Below are positions 2,244 to 25,676 of a stretch of 64,000 nucleotides of DNA, piece after piece. Within the stretch, counting starts at the first letter, position 1; each line of letters opens with the position of its first letter. Made by a program: the position numbers and the translations under genes. Location: NCBI GenBank assembly GCA_903832055.1, contig CAILAC010000016.1, positions 372,001 to 436,000 on the forward strand. The letters are read 5' to 3'. The notes beneath the pieces are model-generated. The model was not told where the DNA came from and did no database searches. It was given only the letters and a program-made list of their open reading frames with translations. This stretch comes from an uncultured Acidobacteriota bacterium. GTDB taxonomy: Bacteria; Acidobacteriota; Terriglobia; Terriglobales; Acidobacteriaceae.

Positions 2244-5200
2244 CTAAGCCAGCTCACTTGCAGGAAGAGCCTGGCTAGCCCCGCTAGCTCCGCTGACACC
2301 GCTAGCCCCGCTCACAACGCTCGTCTTCTTCCCCATCCGGCTCGCCAGCCGGTCAAAGTACAGATACACCACCGGCGTCGTATACAGCGTCAGCAGTTGC
2401 GAAACCAGCAATCCGCCTACAATCGTGATGCCCAGCGGCTTGCGCAGCTCCGAACCCACGCCCGACCCCAGCGCCAGCGGCAACCCGCCCAGCAGCGCCG
2501 CCATCGTCGTCATCATGATCGGCCTGAATCGCAGCAGGCACGCCTGAAAAATCGCCTCATGCGGAGCCTTGCCCTCATCGCGCTCCGCCGCAAGCGCAAA
2601 GTCGATCATCATGATCGCGTTCTTCTTCACAATGCCAATCAGCAGAATCACCCCAATCAGCGCAATCACACTGAAATCAGTCTTCGTAATCAGCAGCGCC
2701 AGAATCGCCCCTACTCCAGCCGAGGGCAGCGTGGAAATAATCGTAATTGGGTGGATGAAGCTCTCGTAGAGCACCCCCAGCACGATGTACACCGTAATCA
2801 GCGCGGCCAGAATCAGCAGCGGCTCATTCACCAGCGACGCCTGAAATGCCGCCGCCGTCCCCTGGAAAGTCCCGTTGATGCTCGCCGGCAACTGGATCGC
2901 TGCTTCCACCCGCTGGGTAGCGGCCACCGCGTCGCCCAGGCTCCGGCCCGGCGCAACGTTGAAGCTCACCACCGTCGCCGGAAACTGCCCCTGGTGCCCA
3001 ATCGCCAACTGCGTCCGCGCCTGCTCCCAGTGCGCCAGGTTGCCCAGCGGCACCTGCGTCCCATTGGCTGACTTCACGTACAGGTGCTCCAGCACGGATG
3101 GGTCGGTCTGGAAGTCCGGCCCAACCTCCATCACCACGTGGTACTGGTTCAACTGCGTAAAGATGGTCGAAACCTGCCGCTGTCCAAACGCGTCATAGAG
3201 CGTGTTATCGATGTCTGCCACCGCGATTCCCAGCCGCGACGCCGTGTCACGGTCAATCACCAGTTGCGCGCTCAAACCCTGGTCCTGCAAATCGCTGGCC
3301 ACATCGCGTAGCTCCGGCTGCTTGCTCAGCTCGGCAACCATCTTGCGCGTGTAGGTCGCCAGCTCCTGCTGGTTCGGGTCTTCCAGCGAATACTGAAACT
3401 GCGTCCGGCTCACCCGGTCTTCGACTGTGAGATCCTGCAGCGGCTGCAGGAAAAGCTGTATATCCTCAATCGCCGCGAACTGCGGCTGCAAGCGCGCAAT
3501 CACGTCGGAGGCCGAGATTTTTCGCTGGTCGAGCGGTTTCAAATTGATCTGGATGCGCCCGCTGTTCAACGTTGTATTTGCCCCGTCCACCCCAATAAAC
3601 GATGAAATGCTCTCGACCGCCGGGTCCTTCAGCAGGATGTCCACCAGCTTCTGCTGACGCGCCGCCATGCTGGTAAACGAGACTGTCTGCGGTGCCTCTG
3701 AAATCCCCAGGATCACGCCCGTATCCTGGACCGGAAAGAATCCCTTGGGCACGATAAGAAACAGCACAATCGTCGCCACCAGCGTGCCAAACGTCACCAC
3801 CAGCGTCAGCAACTGATGACGCAAAATCACCTCAAGCGTGCGCCCGTAAAACGCAATCACCGACTCAAAAACCTTTTCAGAATTGCGGAAGAACCAGCCC
3901 TGCTCTGACTCCGGCTTATGCTTCAGCAGCCGCGCGCACATCATCGGCGTCAGCGTCAGCGAAACCACCGCCGACACCAGAATCGTAATCGCCAGCGTCA
4001 CTGCAAACTCGCGGAACAACCGCCCCACCACATCGCCCATGAACAGCAGCGGAATCAGCACCGCAATAAGCGACACCGTCAACGAAACAATCGTGAAGCC
4101 AATCTGCTCTGAACCCTTGAGAGCCGCCTGCAGGGGGTCTTCGCCAGCCTCGATGTAGCGGGCAATGTTCTCGATCATCACGATGGCGTCGTCCACCACA
4201 AAGCCCGTCGAGATTGTCAGCGCCATCAGCGTCAGGTTGTTCAGGCTGTACCCCAGCAGGTACATCACTGCAAATGTGCCCACCAGCGACAGAGGCACTG
4301 CCACCGAAGGAATAATCGTCGCCGCCAGGTTCCTCAAAAAGAGGAAAATCACCATCACCACCAGCCCGATGGTCAGCATCAGCGAAAACTGCACGTCCGC
4401 CACCGACGCCCGAATGACGGAAGTCCGGTCCGTCAGCACCTTGACCTGCACCGAGCCCGGCAGGCTTGCCCGCAGCTGCGGCAAAAGCGCCGTGATCCGG
4501 TCCACAACATCGATGATGTTCGCCCCCGGTTGTCGTTGAATGTTCAGAATGACTGCCGGCTTCTGCGTCCCGCCCTGCACGCCCATCCACGCGGCCTGTT
4601 GCGAATTCTCCGCCGCATCGACAATCGTCGCCACATCCGAAGCCCTAACCGCAGCCCCATTGCGGTAAGCCACAATCACCGGCCTGTATTCAGCGCTCGA
4701 CAGCAGTTGGTCGTTCGCACCCACCGTGTACGACTGCCGCGAGCCGTTCAACGTTCCCTTCGCCTGGTCCACATTTGCCGTCGACAGCGCCGCCCGCAGG
4801 TCTTCAAGGCTCAGGTTGTAGCTGGCCAGTTGCGCCGGGTTTGCCTGAATCCGCACCGACGGCTTCTGCCCGCCCGCAATCGAAACCAGCCCTACCCCTT
4901 TCACCTGAGAAATCTTCTGCGCCATGTTCGTGTCCGCAGCATCCTCGATTTTTTGCAAAGGCAGCGAGTCGGATGTCAGCGCCAACGTCAGAATGGGCGC
5001 ATCAGCCGGATTCACCTTGCTGTACACCGGCGGATTCGGCAAATCCGTAGGCAAAAAGCTGTTGCCTGCGTTGATCGCAGCCTGCACTTCCTGCTCGGCC
5101 ACGTCGATGTTTTCATCCAGATTGAACTCCAGCGTGATCACCGACCCGCCGCCCGAACTCACCGAGGTCATCTGCTTCAACCCCGGCATCTGCCCAAACT

Positions 5201-19352: not shown

Positions 19353-19393
19353 CTTGCCTTTCTGGCTGTCATTCCCCAAGGGAATCTGCTTCA
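19353..19393. repeat. Intergenic repeat, ATTCCC-loop-GGGAAT family (copy 2)
   Basis: CTTGCCTTTCTGGCTGTC then ATTCCC-CAA-GGGAAT and CTGCTTCA. The arms are identical to copies 3 and 4 while the loop differs. Confidence 0.8.
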
Positions 19394-19414
19394 CATATTG
19401 CTTTTGCCTCTGCC

Positions 19415-19456
19415 CTTGCCTTTCTGGCTGTCATTCCCGTCAGGGAATCTGCTTCA
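19415..19456. repeat. Intergenic repeat, ATTCCC-loop-GGGAAT family (copy 3)
   Basis: Same element as copy 2, 62 bp further on in the same orientation, with loop GTCA. The run of copies between rplT and the islet looks like a tandem arrangement. Confidence 0.8.
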
Positions 19457-19465
19457 TAGATTGCC

Positions 19466-19565
19466 GGGTGCCCCCGGTCTGGATTTTCAGACCGGGGTTT
19501 CCCATATCCCCCATTTCCCACCCCAAACAAACCGCCCAATTGCCGACCATTAACCGCCTCAGGCG
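19466..19565. repeat. 100-bp direct repeat, left border of the dpnI-hicAB islet
   Basis: The element starts GGGTGCCCCCGGTCTG, forms a perfect 10-bp hairpin (19472-19497), continues through CATATCCCCCATTTCCCACC and ends near ATTAACCGCCTCAGGCG. Bases 21564-21664 repeat it in the same orientation with only a few differences. Together the two copies bracket the small ORF, the DpnI-like gene and hicAB. Confidence 0.9.
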
Positions 19566-19567
19566 CC

Positions 19568-19610
19568 GGGTGCCCCATTTCTACCGACGCCCTTTGTCGG
19601 GAGAAGTGGG
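19568..19610. repeat. Hairpin repeat, GGGTGCCCCAT type
   Basis: GGGTGCCCCATTTCT followed by a nested stem: CCCATTTCT (19574-19582) can pair with AGAAGTGGG (19602-19610) with a T-G pair, and CCGACG/TGTCGG pair inside. It is related to the element at 2186-2231 by its opening and by keeping the stem, not by the stem sequence. Confidence 0.65.
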
Positions 19611-19639
19611 AACCACAAATTTCAGGGGGAGTCGTTGCC

Positions 19640-19680
19640 CTTGCCTCTCTGGTTGTCATTCCCGAAGGGAATCTGCTTCC
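19640..19680. repeat. Intergenic repeat, ATTCCC-GAA-GGGAAT family (copy 4)
   Basis: CTTGCCTCTCTGGTTGTC then a perfect ATTCCC-GAA-GGGAAT palindrome (19658-19672) and CTGCTTCC, in the same orientation as copies 2 and 3. Confidence 0.8.
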
Positions 19681-19755
19681 CCCCCCGCACACTCACCAAA
19701 CCGGCGGGAGCCGGGCGATTCATCTCCCTGCCGCTGAATGCTGGAACCAGCTTTC

Positions 19756-21110: not shown

Positions 21111-21497
21111 ATGGCATCCTATATCGCCTATCTCCGCAAAGAGCCCAACAGCGACTACGGCGTCGAGTTCCCTGACCTGCCCGGCTGCTTCAGCGCCGGC
21201 AGCACCCTTGAAGAAGCCAAAGCCATGGCCGCCGAGGCCCTCGCCGGGCACGTCTCCGTCCTCGAATCCGAAGGCATGCTTATCCCCGCACCCTCCACCC
21301 TCGACCAATTAGCAGGCGACCCCCACCGCGGCGACGCTCTACTGCTGCTCGTCGAACTCGACCCATCCCTGCTCAAATCCGAGCGCGTCAACATCATGAT
21401 TCCCCGCCACCTGCTCGGCCGCATCGACGCCGTCGCCGGCACCGGAAACCGCTCCCGCTTCCTCGTCGAGGCCGCCGAACAGCGCCTCGCCGGCTAA
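21111..21497 (+). CDS. hicB: HicB antitoxin
   Basis: Antitoxin of 128 residues that neutralises HicA. Residues 1-70 form the partially degraded RNase H fold of HicB (YIAYLRKEPNSDYGVEFPDLPGC, then a conserved helix EEAKAMAAEALAGHV). The C-terminus (VNIMIPRHLLGRIDAVAG...SRFLVEAAEQRL) is a ribbon-helix-helix DNA-binding domain. It overlaps no other gene, starts at ATG 21111 four bases after hicA, and should bind the palindrome at 20897-20914. The right-hand direct repeat of the islet follows. Confidence 0.93.
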   Translation: MASYIAYLRKEPNSDYGVEFPDLPGCFSAGSTLEEAKAMAAEALAGHVSVLESEGMLIPAPSTLDQLAGDPHRGDALLLLVELDPSLLKSERVNIMIPRHLLGRIDAVAGTGNRSRFLVEAAEQRLAG

Positions 21498-21563
21498 GCC
21501 AATCCTTTGCGAACAATTAACCGCCCCTCGGCTGGCTCTCGCAGCTCCAAAAATAAGAAAAAC

Positions 21564-21664
21564 GGGTGCCCCCGGTCTGGATTTTCAGACCGGGGTTTTT
21601 CATATCCCCCATTTCCCACCCCAAACAAACCATCCAATTGCCGACAATTAACCGCCTCAGGCGC
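21564..21664. repeat. 100-bp direct repeat, right border of the dpnI-hicAB islet
   Basis: Near-identical to 19466-19565 and in the same orientation: GGGTGCCCCCGGTCTG hairpin, CATATCCCCCATTTCCCACC, AATTAACCGCCTCAGGCG. Differences are a handful of single bases. Confidence 0.9.
21570..21600 (+). terminator. Terminator-like hairpin supplied by the repeat after hicB
   Basis: A perfect 10-bp stem, CCCCGGTCTG with CAGACCGGGG, around a 6-nt loop, followed directly by TTTTT (21596-21600). It lies 72 bp after hicB and would end transcription from the hicAB promoter. The sister copy at 19472-19497 is followed by only TTT. Confidence 0.6.
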
Positions 21665-21979
21665 ATACTGAGTCCAGGTGAAAATCCGGCAAGTCTCCAG
21701 CCAGCCAAAGCCCCGGCAGAAAAGCGCGCAAACCAGGAAAAGCGAAAGTCTCCCCAGCAAAAGTGGCAACCAATAGCACTAAAACAACACTAAAACACCC
21801 TAAAATCAACCACATCTCTCTTACAATCAACAACATACAACGAAAACAGAGGTACCCCCCCCTTTAAGCGAAATCGCCTATCGTTCTTCGCTTTTTATTC
21901 CATTTTTATTCGCCTACTTCGTGACGGCATTCCGCCGGTTTTTCGCCCCGCGCGCCGTGGTTTATCCTGACACTTGCGC
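21665..21979. other. Region between the islet border and pheS, with short A-rich tandem repeats
   Basis: No gene seen. At 21778-21807 there are two 11-bp units CACTAAAACAA/CACTAAAACAC and a partial third. The stretch from 21890 to 21975 is T-rich and should carry the pheS promoter; TATCCT near 21963 is a possible -10. No T-box-type leader (AGGGTGGNACCGCG) is visible. Confidence 0.5.
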
Positions 21980-23053
21980 ATGATGAACACCGATTTAGAC
22001 CAATCCTTCGCCCAGCTCGAAGCAGAAGCCCGTCAGGCCGCCTCAAGCCTCCATTCGCCGGAGGCCGTCGAGAACTTCCGCCTCGAATGGCTCGGCCGCA
22101 AGCAGGGCCGCCTCAAGCAACTCTCGGAGCAATGGCTCAAAGCCGCTCCCGCCGAGCAGAAGCGCGACCTCGGCCAGCGCTTCAACGCCCTCAAGACCCT
22201 CGTCGAATCCCTGCTCGACGAAGCCTCCAGCTCTGGTCCTTCTGACGCCTCGCTCGCCGCCGAAGCCCTCGATATCACGCTCCCCGGAACCCGCCGACTC
22301 CAGGGCGCCGAGCACCCCATCACTCGCACCATGAACGAGCTCATCGCCATCTTCGCCGGCCTCGGCTACTCCGTCGGCGTCGGCCCCGAGGTCGAGACCG
22401 ACTACTACAACTTCGAGTGCATGAACTTCCCCCCCGGCCATCCCGCCCGCGACACCCAGGACACCCTGGTCATCGCCAACCAGGATCGCCGCAGCCTCCG
22501 CGACCGCCTCCTCCTGCGCACCCACACCTCCCCCGTCCAGATGCGCACCATGGAGCAGCACCCACCCCCCATCCGCATCGTAATCCCCGGCAAAGTCCAC
22601 CGTAACGATGCCGCCGATGCCACGCATTCGCCGGTCTTCCACCAGGTCGAGGGCCTCTGCGTTGACACCAACATCACCTTCAGCGACCTCAAGGGCACGC
22701 TCGACCACGCGATGAAGGCGCTCTTCGGGTCGAGCGTCAAGACGCGCTTCTTCCCCAGCTTCTTTCCGTTTACGGAACCGAGCGCCGACGTGCAGATTTC
22801 CTGCATCTTCTGCGCCGGCAAAGGCTGTCGCAAGTGCAAGCACTCCGGCTGGATTGAGCTGCTCGGCTGCGGCATGGTTGACCCCGCAGTCTTCGCCTTT
22901 GCAGCAGAAAAGCAGCCCGCCTACGACCCCAGAAAAATCAGCGGCTTCGCCTTTGGCATGGGCGTCGAACGCATCGCCATGATGAAGTACGGCGTCAGCG
23001 ACATCGGCCAGTTCTACTCGGGAGACATGCGGTTTCTGGAGCAGTTCTCTTGA
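21980..23053 (+). CDS. pheS: Phenylalanine--tRNA ligase alpha subunit
   Basis: Catalytic subunit of the (alpha-beta)2 enzyme that charges tRNA-Phe. About 357 residues from ATG 21980 (a TTG two codons upstream is also possible). The N-terminal helical coiled-coil arm (about 1-90) binds tRNA. The class II core follows, with VETDYYNFECMNFPPGHPAR, motif 2 around HRNDAADATHSPVFHQVEGL and motif 3 FGMGVERIAMMKYGV. A CxxC...CxxC zinc knuckle (CIFCAGKGCRKCKHSGW) is inserted before motif 3. pheT follows, but 490 bp away because a four-helix-bundle gene with inverted-repeat borders is inserted. Confidence 0.97.
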   Translation: MMNTDLDQSFAQLEAEARQAASSLHSPEAVENFRLEWLGRKQGRLKQLSEQWLKAAPAEQKRDLGQRFNALKTLVESLLDEASSSGPSDASLAAEALDITLPGTRRLQGAEHPITRTMNELIAIFAGLGYSVGVGPEVETDYYNFECMNFPPGHPARDTQDTLVIANQDRRSLRDRLLLRTHTSPVQMRTMEQHPPPIRIVIPGKVHRNDAADATHSPVFHQVEGLCVDTNITFSDLKGTLDHAMKALFGSSVKTRFFPSFFPFTEPSADVQISCIFCAGKGCRKCKHSGWIELLGCGMVDPAVFAFAAEKQPAYDPRKISGFAFGMGVERIAMMKYGVSDIGQFYSGDMRFLEQFS

Positions 23054-23057
23054 AGGC

Positions 23058-23098
23058 AGCGGAGCTAGCGGTGCTGGCGGGGTCAGCGGAGCTTGGAG
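23058..23098. repeat. Left inverted repeat of the pheS-pheT insertion (9-bp units)
   Basis: Four AGCGGNGCT-type 9-bp units start 4 bp after the pheS stop. The first 36 bases match the reverse complement of 23492-23527 with two mismatches. The unit is the complement of CTAGCNCCG seen at 2275-2323. Confidence 0.9.
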
Positions 23099-23104
23099 GT
23101 TAGT

Positions 23105-23485
23105 TTGGCTCGTCCGAAAGACCATCACGAACTCGTAGTTTGGCAGAAGGCGATGGTGCTGACCCGCGAAGTCTATGCCGCGACAAACAGCTTTCCTCGC
23201 GAAGAGACCTTTGGGTTGAAGATGCAAATCAGACGGGCTGCAGTCTCCATTCCCGCAAACATCGCTGAGGGCCACGGTAGACTGACCGACTTGCAGTTCA
23301 GACACTTTCTTGGCAATGCTCGCGGTTCGTTGAGTGAGCTTCAAACAGAATTTGAACTAGCGCGTGACCTCGGCTTCATCGAGGCACAAACAAGTGAGGC
23401 CGTGATGAAGTTGTCAGGCGATGTAGCCCGATTGCTGAATGGATTGATAGCCTCAATGCCAGCAAACATCAATTCCAAGGGATAA
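23105..23485 (+). CDS. Four-helix-bundle protein (23S rRNA intervening-sequence / S23 family)
   Basis: Small cytoplasmic protein, 126 residues from TTG 23105 or 130 from TTG 23093. GGAGGT at 23095-23100 favours the later start, although the spacing is short. It belongs to the family first described from intervening sequences in 23S rRNA genes (TIGR02436-type; related to Avd of diversity-generating retroelements). Typical features: HHELVVWQKAMVLTREVY, then FGLKMQIRRAAVSIPANIAEG, then FRHFLGNARGSLSELQTEF. It lies alone between pheS and pheT, bordered on both sides by ~36-bp inverted repeats, which suggests a small mobile unit. Molecular function is unknown; some members bind nucleic acid. No reverse transcriptase or transposase is nearby. 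Confidence 0.88.
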   Translation: MARPKDHHELVVWQKAMVLTREVYAATNSFPREETFGLKMQIRRAAVSIPANIAEGHGRLTDLQFRHFLGNARGSLSELQTEFELARDLGFIEAQTSEAVMKLSGDVARLLNGLIASMPANINSKG

Positions 23486-23487
23486 GT

Positions 23488-23527
23488 CTCTAGCTCCGCT
23501 AACCCCGCTAGCACCGCTAGCTCCGCT
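23488..23527. repeat. Right inverted repeat of the pheS-pheT insertion (9-bp units)
   Basis: Four 9-bp CTAGCNCCG units start 2 bp after the stop of the four-helix-bundle gene and end 16 bp before the pheT start. Reverse-complemented, 34 of 36 bases match the left repeat. Confidence 0.9.
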
Positions 23528-23543
23528 CTACCAGGATTTCTCA

Positions 23544-25676
23544 ATGAACATACTCACCACCTGGCTCCGCGCCCTGCTTCCCGCAATCCCCGCCGACGAC
23601 CACCAGCTCGCCGAGGCCCTCACCCTGCGCGGCATCGCCGTTGAAGGCATTCACTCGCTCGGCGAGGGCAACGGCCACCTCTACGAGATGGACATCACCA
23701 CCAACCGCGTCGACGCCATGAACCACTACGGCGTGGCTCGTGAAGTGGCCGCCATTTACGGCCTCACACTCGCGCCCGGCGCAGCCCCACTGCCTGCCGC
23801 GCAACCTGCTTTGACGCCATTCTCCGTCCAGATTCAGGCACAAGACGCCTGCGGCCGCTTCACTGCCCGCGTCCTGCGCAACATCAAAGTGCAGCCCATC
23901 GCAGCCTCCAGCGGCCCCATCAGCAGCTATGCCGCGCGCATGTTCACCCTGCTCGAACAGAAGCAAATCTCGAACGCCGTCGATGCCAGCAACTTCGCCT
24001 GGCTCGCCATGGGCCAGCCCACACACGCCTTTGACCTGGACAAAATCGTTGGCGGCATTATCGTTCGGCGCGCCCATAGAGGCGAATCCCTCAAGACCCT
24101 TGATGGCGTCCTCCGCACCCTCGACCCCGAAGACCTCATCGTCGCCGACCATGCCAAGCCGCTGGCGCTCGCTGGCGTCATGGGCGGCTGGGACACGATG
24201 ATTACGCCAGAAACCAGCAACGTGCTCGTCGAAGCCGCCTGGTTTGACCCCGTCGCAGTCCGCCGAACCGCAAAGCGCCACGGCCTGCACACCGACGCCA
24301 GCCATCGCTTCGAGCGCGGAGCCGACCTCGCCGCCTGCCCCCTAGCCTCTGAAATCGTCTCCGCGATCATCCTCGAAGCCGGAGGCCACATCGAGGGAGA
24401 TTTGGTCGATATCACCGTTCCGGCCATCCTCGCGAAAACCGCTCACCGCGCGCCCGTCGCGCTGGCGCTCTCTGAAGTTCAGCGCATTCTCGGTACCACA
24501 CTCGAAGCAGAAGGCATCACCGCCCATACCGTCGAAACGGTGCTCACTGCGCTCGGCTGCCAACTAGCTGCCGAATCTGAAACCACGTGGCAGGTTACCC
24601 TCCCCAGCTGGCGTCTCGACCTCGCGCGCGAAATCGACCTCATCGAAGAAGTTGCCCGCGTCTACGGCTACAACCGCTTCGCCAACACCCTGCCCGCATT
24701 TGCCGGTGCCATTCGAGAGCTGCCCCACGCCGCCGCCGACTCGGCCCTGCGCCGGACGCTGCTCGCTGCCGGGTGGAATGAAGCGATCTCCAGCACCTTT
24801 ACCTCTGCCACCGACGCCGCCCTCACCGCGCCGCAGCCCGGCCTCGTCGTCCCGCTCGGCAACCCGCTCAGCGAAGAGGCCGGCGTCATGCGTCCCTCCC
24901 TCGTCCCCGGTATGCTCTCCATGATTGCCGCCAACCTGCACCGCGACACCGGCGATGTGCGGCTTTTCGAACTCGGAACCGTCTTTTCTGGCACTACCGA
25001 AAAGGTGGACGAGCGGCCCGCACTCGCCATCGGCCTCGCCGGAAGCGCACCCCAGACAGGAGTCCAGATCGGCCTTGGTGCGTCCACGAAGCCGCTCGAT
25101 TTCTACGACCTCAAGGGCCTCGTCGAGCAACTCCTCAGCCGCTTCAAAACCAAATCCGTTTACTTCGATAACTTTGCCTCTGTCGCAGGCATTACTCCCG
25201 AGTGGCTGCACCCTTATCGCGCCGCCCGCGTCGTCGTGGAGGGTACAACCGTCGGATGGCTCGGCCAGCTTCACCCCCGCCAGGCCACGGCACGCAAGCT
25301 CAAAGACGCCGTCCTGGTCGCCGAACTCTACCTGGACCGCCTTCACCCGCTGCCGCTCCACAAGCCCGCCGTCCGCGAACTCTCCCGCTTCCAGCCCGTC
25401 CGCCGCGACTTCTCACTGCTGGTGCCTGACAAAACCGCCTGGGCAGAACTCGATGCTTCCCTCGCCGCCCTTGCCCGCGCCTCTCTTCCCGAGCTTACGC
25501 AGTGGCAGGTTCGCGAAGTCGTCCATAATCAGGCAGCACCCCGTCAGGAATACTCGCTCCTGCTCAGTACCACTTTTCAAGCGAGCGACCGCACCCTGCG
25601 CGACGAAGAACTCCACTCCTACGCCCAGCACGTGCTTGCGGCTGTTTCCAATCTCGGCGCCAGGCTACGAACCTGA
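23544..25676 (+). CDS. pheT: Phenylalanine--tRNA ligase beta subunit, lacking the EMAP/OB-fold domain
   Basis: Beta subunit with tRNA-recognition and editing domains, 710 residues against ~790 in E. coli. The N-terminus MNILTTWLRALLPAIPADDH leads through GIAVEGIHSLGEGNGHLYEM straight into DITTNRVDAMNHYGVAREVA. The OB-fold tRNA-binding domain, usually residues ~40-150, is therefore absent. Remaining parts are B3/B4 editing (FTARVLRNIKV...; DASNFAWLAMGQPTHAFD), B5, the class II-like core with EVARVYGYNRF, and the C-terminal FDX-ACB anticodon-binding domain (PVRRDFSLLVPDKTAWAEL). ATG 23544 lies just after the right inverted repeat, so expression may be affected by the insertion upstream. Confidence 0.96.
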   Translation: MNILTTWLRALLPAIPADDHQLAEALTLRGIAVEGIHSLGEGNGHLYEMDITTNRVDAMNHYGVAREVAAIYGLTLAPGAAPLPAAQPALTPFSVQIQAQDACGRFTARVLRNIKVQPIAASSGPISSYAARMFTLLEQKQISNAVDASNFAWLAMGQPTHAFDLDKIVGGIIVRRAHRGESLKTLDGVLRTLDPEDLIVADHAKPLALAGVMGGWDTMITPETSNVLVEAAWFDPVAVRRTAKRHGLHTDASHRFERGADLAACPLASEIVSAIILEAGGHIEGDLVDITVPAILAKTAHRAPVALALSEVQRILGTTLEAEGITAHTVETVLTALGCQLAAESETTWQVTLPSWRLDLAREIDLIEEVARVYGYNRFANTLPAFAGAIRELPHAAADSALRRTLLAAGWNEAISSTFTSATDAALTAPQPGLVVPLGNPLSEEAGVMRPSLVPGMLSMIAANLHRDTGDVRLFELGTVFSGTTEKVDERPALAIGLAGSAPQTGVQIGLGASTKPLDFYDLKGLVEQLLSRFKTKSVYFDNFASVAGITPEWLHPYRAARVVVEGTTVGWLGQLHPRQATARKLKDAVLVAELYLDRLHPLPLHKPAVRELSRFQPVRRDFSLLVPDKTAWAELDASLAALARASLPELTQWQVREVVHNQAAPRQEYSLLLSTTFQASDRTLRDEELHSYAQHVLAAVSNLGARLRT

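Follow-up and report, generated by a model that had tools for sequence, protein, structure and literature searches.

What brings a small gene framed by long inverted repeats into the junction between pheS and pheT, and what keeps such a unit in existence? The question is raised by positions 23058-23527 of a 64,000-nucleotide stretch of DNA (the window) from the 4.57-Mb genome, here G000, of an uncultured Acidobacteriota bacterium, in which a gene for a four-helix-bundle protein of the 23S rRNA intervening sequence protein (IVP) family stands between these two genes. We think it probable that the segment is an IVP cassette that sits in a gene-pair junction and is read from the host operon, one copy of a class distributed over many phyla. 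As for how the class persists, the account that we hold to be the best, with somewhat better than even confidence, is that of a selfish cassette: IVP, acting as a ring, would read the repeats on either side of its gene and help them to spread. Unless otherwise stated, family and phylum refer to those of G000.

The gene (23105-23485, 381 bp) belongs to the family first met in 23S rRNA intervening sequences, as the initial annotation of this DNA had proposed: it matches PF05635 (23S_rRNA_IVP) with an E value of 3.5e-35 (120.9 bits vs the curated cut-off of 33.8) and TIGR02436 (four helix bundle protein) with 1e-33 (115.8 bits vs 24), and a GGAGG lies 6-10 bases upstream of its TTG start. On either side is an arm of 36 nt composed of four 9-bp units AGCGGNGCT; the two arms, separated by 398 nt, are 94% complementary, matching at 34 positions, and the pheS stop lies 4 bases ahead of the left arm and the pheT start 16 bases past the right one. 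These features had been placed at the right coordinates from the outset, and the identity of both neighbours is borne out by Pfam matches. Three inverted pairs no more than 1.5 kb apart are present in the 64 kb, the other two being a 25-nt palindrome (72%) and a 20-nt pair (85%). When the left flank is aligned with the reverse complement of the right, the window arms score 31.0, against a median of 8.5 for randomly paired flanks of family IVP loci, and chance is therefore no explanation. The ends thus resemble the terminal inverted repeats of insertion sequences (IS) and miniature inverted-repeat transposable elements (MITEs); between them, no further open frame of at least 80 aa stands beside the IVP gene, so that no transposase is encoded, and no parent IS or MITE was seen, Y1_Tnp being the sole one searched by name. 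An Rfam scan returned no match in the window, nor in 19 other IVP loci, most of which have weak or no arms.

G000 has one further IVP match, whose inverted ends consist of a different, AGTGTGA-like repeat; it lies between two genes of what we take, by eye, to be one operon, pilC- and pilB-like. This second copy with other ends moves the question from a single insertion to a class. IVP loci were drawn from the genus (15 genomes, eight with IVP), the family (120 genomes, 92 with IVP) and other phyla (80 named loci of at least 576 confirmed), and mismatched flank pairs served as the null of the arm test. The family loci, genus included, come from the top of the PF05635 score range and so are no random sample; 82 were given, two were dropped (L034 for an internal stop, L035 for a short frame) and the fragments L028-L030 were excluded. 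In the named set, 75 loci were usable, the other five having too little flank. The family arms have a median score of 21.25 vs 8.5 for the null, 74 of 80 exceeding the 95% null and 31 the 99% null, which is high (22.9) because unrelated loci share units; in direct orientation, the same flanks exceed the two thresholds in three cases and in none. Among the named loci, which span Planctomycetes, Bacteroidota, Clostridia, Chloroflexi, Proteobacteria, candidate phyla and Methanophagales, the median is 17.0 vs 8.0, with 54 and 44 of 75 above the 95% and 99% null in inverted orientation and 17 and 12 in direct orientation. IVP is also found in 28 plasmid records, 26 of them from cyanobacterial genera by name, and inverted repeat arms are present at all eight cyanobacterial plasmid loci chosen from these records (scores 19.0-31.5, set against the null of the named set rather than one of their own). 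A Nostoc plasmid (L235), for example, carries five TAGGGAG-type units between two ribonucleotide reductase genes, and plasmids of Pseudanabaena and Anabaena (L239, L240) carry the IVP gene with its arms between cas6 and cas4; the direct score of L239 (66.0) exceeds the inverted one (30.5) because arrays of both orientations crowd there. The position between cas6 and cas4 may explain why the family is named in a figure legend of PMC10910872. In the Nostoc example, IVP is antisense between the genes for the two ribonucleotide reductase subunits, again a partner-subunit junction.

Outside rRNA, an IVP gene is thus as a rule enclosed by inverted arms built of short tandem units, and the expectation that the gene would recur at other loci with inverted repeats holds in the family, named and plasmid collections alike. 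The cassette measures 477 nt from arm to arm in the median (range 418-752, 68 elements). Its protein is basic, with a median isoelectric point of 9.10 (above 7.5 in 69 of 80), and is under purifying selection where measurable: of 11 pairs, three have a dS below 1.4, with dN/dS values of 0.05, 0.06 and 0.24, and the other eight lie near or beyond saturation. Phage carriers did not come to light, tblastn finding no match in 50,697 phage records at E 1e-5.

The arms have a period and a polarity. After removal of arms scoring under 14.5 (12 of 80 in the family, 30 of 80 in the named set), 55 of 68 arms in the family and 38 of 50 in the named set show a period of 7 or 14. A clear period is present in 61 left arms of the family, and in these CAG recurs 24 times vs none for CTG and AGT 26 times vs five for ACT, TAG (14 to 9) and AGC (17 to 11) being less lopsided against their complements; among 45 named arms, the corresponding figures are 16 to 1 for AGG, 14 to 3 for TAG, 12 to 3 for AGT and 10 to 3 for CAG. 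The constant is thus an AG at seven-base intervals, on the strand that leads into the gene whichever arm is read. In the family, arms with exactly five AG/GG in the 7-nt register are more frequent than those with any other number (26 of 80 on the left, 25 of 80 on the right), and four or more are reached by 49 of 80 arms on the left and by as many on the right, vs 17 of 400 shuffles. In the named set, four or more are reached by 41 of 75 left and 34 of 75 right arms vs 9 of 375 shuffles, and the right arms have five units in 14 cases and four in five. Other spacings add little: at 8 there is a small excess of four or more in left arms (7 of 80 family, 8 of 75 named), and at 5, 6, 9 and 10 next to none. 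The tandem 7-nt intergenic repeat type known as STRR or LSSR fits most of the class, of which the window copy is a 9-nt-unit variant; by eye, the units in other pheST copies measure some 8-9 nt. STRR is the name given to the short tandem heptamer repeats of cyanobacteria.

The entries of two solved relatives, 2gsc and 2rld, contain five chains each, and the Xanthomonas protein is described as a torus-shaped homopentamer of four-helix bundles (Lin 2006, as told in PMC4990558). Given five-chained relatives and a commonest count of five, one AG heptamer per subunit is a natural idea, and the proposed likeness is to TRAP, with every subunit of a ring recognising a single AG-type unit in the array; TRAP has 11 subunits vs five, and binding by IVP is a proposal. 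The fold of TRAP is unrelated to the four-helix bundle of IVP. In TRAP, the 11 subunits bind 11 (G/U)AG repeats (PMC4027176).

The letters of the arms are tied to the lineage of the protein. In this comparison, for which arms under 14.5 were dropped (12 of 80 family, 31 of 80 named) and 100 aa were also required, arm similarity rises with protein identity in both sets (Mantel p 5e-4). For pairs from different genera, the similarity is 0.11 where the proteins are less than 50% identical, 0.13 at 50-60%, 0.44 at 60-70% (69 pairs) and 0.67 above 70% (5 pairs), and different IVP genes of one genome have arms no more alike than those of unrelated genes (0.116, 27 pairs). Grouped by the genes on either side, the 80 family loci make up 48 sites, of which pheS-pheT holds 10 loci and another site six; this grouping requires homology of both flanks and may link adjacent junctions into one cluster. 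At sites other than pheS-pheT, genes were named by eye, and the neighbour pairs there presumably include trpE-trpG, sucC-sucD, ilvB-ilvN and dprA-topA. The trpE-trpG site holds more than one IVP lineage, and some related proteins occupy different sites yet have similar arms (L040 and L050, L038 and L189, L184 and L185). The five pheST IVP proteins of the genus form one clade (support 100/97) which, together with the 10 loci at this junction, indicates a lineage mostly kept or lost in place. Cassettes thus turn up at new sites as well as persisting at old ones. Among 93 co-directional gene pairs (neighbours taken as the longest open frame), IVP is sense in 82 and antisense in 11, a bias that suits read-through expression from the host operon.

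The pheS-pheT junction itself occurs in more than one state. PheT was found in 13 of the 15 genus genomes, five of which have the junction filled with IVP (G000, G003, G006, G013, G014), whereas in six it is empty and the pheS stop and pheT start overlap as ATGA (G001, G002, G004, G009, G010, G012); G008 has a plain short spacer. In G011, the nearest relative of G000 by PheT fragment (88%), a repeat scar remains, with no gene and a hairpin of 9-bp units as in the window. No constant target-site duplication is apparent at this junction: filled sites keep stop and start, empty ones overlap them, pheS of G006 ends inside the arm, and the IVP start of G003 overlaps the pheS stop, with the left arm not seen. 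Filled and empty sites, which the initial annotation had asked to be compared, thus coexist among close relatives, and the gene is not, as would have spoken against its proposal, at pheS-pheT in all relatives and devoid of repeats. Of the compact mobile unit that it envisaged, the terminal inverted repeats and the lack of a transposase stand and prove far more general, and movement is indicated indirectly, by like arms elsewhere.

The same junctions bear on a different possibility, namely that the system resembles TRAP in function as well and is not mobile, IVP rings binding arrays in messages, including their own leader, and tuning operons, with arrays spreading as useful elements. The five AG heptamers upstream as the commonest count in the family, the five chains of the solved relatives, the matching numbers of subunits and repeats in TRAP, the purifying selection on the protein and the stability of sites across genera are all as such a regulator would have them. 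Yet a leader-only regulator needs repeats in one arm, whereas both arms keep them equally; almost half of the 13 genus genomes lack the cassette at pheS-pheT, their genes overlapping there; and the letters of the unit vary by lineage, even inside one genome. We consider a regulator of this kind a serious rival, though an unlikely one.

Arrays also lie apart from any IVP gene. In G000, the 9-bp unit recurs at many other places, including gene junctions, a prophage-like cluster, hairpins and single 36-nt arms. Matches to two such units number 55 in G000, 106 in G014, 19 in G013 and 17 in G011, all of which have IVP, and 0-3 in the other 11 genus genomes (four with IVP, seven without), the reversed pattern giving 1-8 per genome. 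For the heptamers, the general pattern AGTNNNN x5 was used, with overlapping matches counted; IVP counts are likewise counts of matches, fragments included. In the family, the 92 genomes with IVP have a mean of 21.3 arrays (18 at zero) and the 28 without have a mean of 0.7 (23 at zero); array number follows IVP number with a Spearman coefficient of 0.66, or 0.69 when the reversed pattern is added, and with the latter the relation also holds within genera (r 0.52, permutation p 2e-4). The reversed pattern tracks IVP as well (0.63) and hence is no neutral control. The rest of the phylum (218 genomes) behaves alike, arrays being present in 77 of 102 genomes with IVP vs 12 of 116 without (means 72.8 and 1.2), with a Spearman coefficient of 0.74 and an r of 0.63 within families (p 3e-4). 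That the repeats might occur at random without the gene, the other outcome considered adverse at the start, is therefore not what is seen.

Dispersed arrays, among the matches listed, also resemble the arms of the IVP genes resident in the same genome, as far as these were retrieved, more than they do other arms: over seven genomes pooled, the similarity is 0.471 to resident arms vs 0.138 to the others (0 of 2000 draws as high), and of the genomes taken singly, G009, G000 and G099 reach p<0.05, followed by G037 (0.056) and G121 (0.10). One random 20-kb stretch of G053 contains four inverted pairs without IVP, of five to seven units each and with loops of at most 67 nt. In random 200-kb samples, heptamer arrays number 10 in G053 and two in G108, both with IVP, vs none in G086 and G028, which have no IVP; for the four genomes in this order, period 8 gives 5, 6, 1 and 0 and period 9 gives 3, 3, 7 and 0, so that only period 7 separates genomes with IVP from those without, on small numbers.

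These data bear on two further explanations. Were the arrays ordinary slippage-prone repeats, in or near which IVP genes merely happen to lie, one would not expect a mirrored copy beyond the gene, as found at 74 of 80 family loci, nor a fixed strand polarity, a preferred count or arm letters that follow the protein. Moreover, of 20 loci of Y1_Tnp, a family that includes RAYT-like proteins, taken from these genomes, inverted ends that exceed the 95% null for such loci are present at 15, and a run of five or more AG heptamers at only one; the heptamers are thus not a general property of inverted-repeat elements in those genomes, and Y1_Tnp loci, considered as a second owner of heptamer arms, were set aside on this count. 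We find slippage scarcely credible as an explanation.

The other explanation, close to the helper in trans suggested by the initial annotation, invokes a transposase or reverse transcriptase that moves cassette and arrays from elsewhere, with IVP an accessory as Avd is in diversity-generating retroelements. Avd is a related four-helix-bundle protein that IVP resembles weakly (PF22296 1.4e-4, NF033474 2.2e-5), the scores lying under the curated cut-offs (bAvd 22.7 bits vs 40, DivGenRetAVD 24.7 vs 80). Across the 120 family genomes, IVP number correlates with Y1_Tnp number (r 0.56). In partial correlations on this set, however, the link of arrays to IVP persists when Y1_Tnp is held constant (0.63), whereas with IVP held constant nothing is left for Y1_Tnp (-0.03) or RVT_1 (0.05). 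In addition, G009 and G116 have 92 and 118 array matches (either pattern direction) with no Y1_Tnp match, and RVT_1 is without a match in G000 as well as in G009. The dependence of arrays on IVP thus holds among the three factors tested (IVP, Y1_Tnp, RVT_1); for the two enzyme families covered, the helper fails to account for the repeat counts, and we regard it as very improbable.

Elements in which a gene is framed by inverted repeats and many gene-less copies are dispersed, as in IVP cassettes, are familiar from the repetitive extragenic palindromes (REP) and their RAYT genes (REPtrons) and from MITEs. The cassette differs from REP/RAYT in that it has no Y1 tyrosine transposase gene and that array number is independent of Y1_Tnp given IVP; the Y1_Tnp loci here have other palindromes, 19 of 20 having no AG-heptamer run of five.

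A more direct precedent is the 23S rRNA intervening sequence, with which the cassette shares the PF05635 protein, a size of about 0.4-0.5 kb, complementary ends around one gene and sporadic occurrence at fixed sites. The differences are that the window copy sits at pheS-pheT rather than in an rRNA gene, that the cassette lies between protein genes, and that its ends are tandem arrays of a short repeat which are also dispersed in the genome. The precedent suggests an intervening sequence acting at the RNA level, the arms pairing in the pheS-IVP-pheT transcript and RNase III cutting the segment out; the cassette would survive because a cut between genes does no harm. The window arms, with 34 of 36 positions complementary, can indeed pair into a long stem once transcribed (-211.4 kcal/mol, z -6.79), the known rRNA members of the family sit in intervening sequences whose ends are complementary and which RNase III cuts (PMC4990558), and IVP is mostly sense to its operon, as the 82 of 93 co-directional pairs attest. 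On the other hand, over 115 arm pairs, the mismatches show no preference for G.U on the sense strand (112 G.U vs 132 A.C, p 0.22), so that selection for an RNA stem is unsupported, and the fixed AG, the dispersed single arrays and the link between arrays and IVP would go unexplained. Of the RNA-level activity first suggested, the capacity to pair stands and the signature of selection for it does not appear; as the whole explanation, we judge excision from RNA unlikely. A converse relation, in which rRNA intervening sequences are a special case of a cassette that landed in rRNA, seems possible to us, if a little short of an even chance.

We return to the selfish cassette. The ring of IVP, five-chained in both solved relatives, would bind the arrays with one AG heptamer per subunit, in the manner of TRAP; it might then hold the two ends together, or one end and a distant array, and so promote copying of arrays and cassette, a step that would take place at the DNA level through replication or recombination enzymes of the host. 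Dispersed arrays would be scars or non-autonomous offshoots. Most telling are the polarity of the AG heptamers, present equally on both sides, the count of five, the five-chain relatives, the basic protein and the dependence of arrays on IVP. Beside these stand a gene between inverted arms, arm letters tied to the protein lineage, one site in filled, empty and repeat-only states, and arrays elsewhere whose number follows IVP matches and whose letters are, over pooled genomes, like those of resident arms.

A number of observations weigh against this account. When the opposite, wrong strand is read, four or more AG/GG are still reached by 16 of the 80 left flanks in the family (three exactly five), the named left arms tie between four and five units (14 each), and the window copy has four 9-nt units per arm; in such cases, one unit per subunit misfits. 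The link of arrays to IVP is a correlation, the array counts include the IVP arms themselves, and one long array counts several times. In the phylum sample, 14 of 129 IVP-free genomes have arrays and 29 of 118 with IVP have none; G333 (family f69) has 91 AGT-heptamer matches and no PF05635 match, an exception in which the IVP may have diverged or be missing, and in the random samples, G108, with one IVP, is no different from IVP-free genomes in AG runs. The resemblance of arrays to arms reaches p<0.05 in three of seven genomes and is absent in G107 (0.22) and G014 (0.77). Part of the link between protein and arms is same-site descent and part is not, and the site-stable pheST lineage suits slow gain and loss better than frequent movement. 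Finally, binding and movement are inferred rather than observed, and no catalytic part is known, a helical bundle of 120 residues offering no obvious chemistry.

What was already known, then, is the rRNA intervening sequence with its IVP protein and complementary ends; what would be new is the link to heptamer arrays. The TAACTGA arrays of Beggiatoaceae and LSSR are similar in having 7-nt tandem units, intergenic and often near start codons, and the reverse complement of TAACTGA, TCAGTTA, is an AG heptamer of the arm kind (as in L063); these prokaryotic heptamer repeats were described with no owner protein, in contrast to the arrays of IVP cassettes. Five IVP-related terms are absent from the main text of PMC4679880, and no paper tying the IVP family to tandem repeats was found in the literature surveyed, which included PMC4679880, PMC6344855, PMC4990558, PMC10053308, PMC10910872 and PMC5524665, subscription papers and preprints falling largely outside this scope, so that an earlier description is possible. 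IVP is ordinary as a protein family and remarkable as a system, and the heptamer link would raise it further, if it holds. IVP cassettes may explain the origin of a common, puzzling bacterial short repeat. The link ties that repeat to a gene of unknown function, both testable with a small protein and a 31-nt array, and it predicts a cause of lineage-specific repeat bursts, for which IVP-free genomes are usable as natural controls.

The features of the window are collected below.

Features of the pheS-pheT junction and a related array, in window coordinates
Feature	Position	Strand	Basis
pheS, upstream neighbour	21980..23053 (start approximate)	+	Pfam PF01409 2.3e-93, PF02912 8.2e-10
Left arm, four 9-bp units AGCGGNGCT (AGCGGAGCT AGCGGTGCT GGCGGGGTC AGCGGAGCT)	23058..23093	+	Inverted-pair search, unit reading
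GGAGG, likely ribosome-binding site of the IVP gene	23095..23099	+	Read in sequence; function inferred
IVP gene, four-helix-bundle protein, 126 aa, TTG start	23105..23485	+	PF05635, TIGR02436
Right arm	23492..23527	-	Reverse complement of left arm at 34/36 positions
pheT, downstream neighbour	23544..25676	+	Pfam PF03483, PF17759, PF03484, PF03147
IVP-less array of 9-bp unit AGCGGNGCT (L010), 36 nt, one arm only	2277..2312	-	Window unit search

The array in the last row lies in frame near the 3' end of a gene that, by eye, we take to encode an efflux-pump-like protein. Elsewhere in G000, at C16 ~1005-1018 kb (L011-L013), 9-bp arrays are clustered, one of them as a hairpin with a short loop, and the surrounding genes are, judged by eye, presumably those of a prophage. 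A loop of AlaS (L263, L264, L274, L275) takes in-frame inserts that differ from genome to genome: 9-bp units in G000, AGCGAGTT-type units in G013 and, by eye, REP-like palindromes in G011 and G014. The solo array in G000 alaS was considered as a clean insertion and rejected, the loop being permissive, G000 only 3 aa longer than nine relatives, and part of the repeat encoding conserved residues, which leaves the case ambiguous. Within the window, minus-strand open frames at 19369-19692 and 21494-21769 share the near-identical stretch PEAVN.RQL.GLFGVGNGGY.KPRSENPDRGHP, and a dispersed DNA repeat therefore probably lies near the pheS-pheT site.
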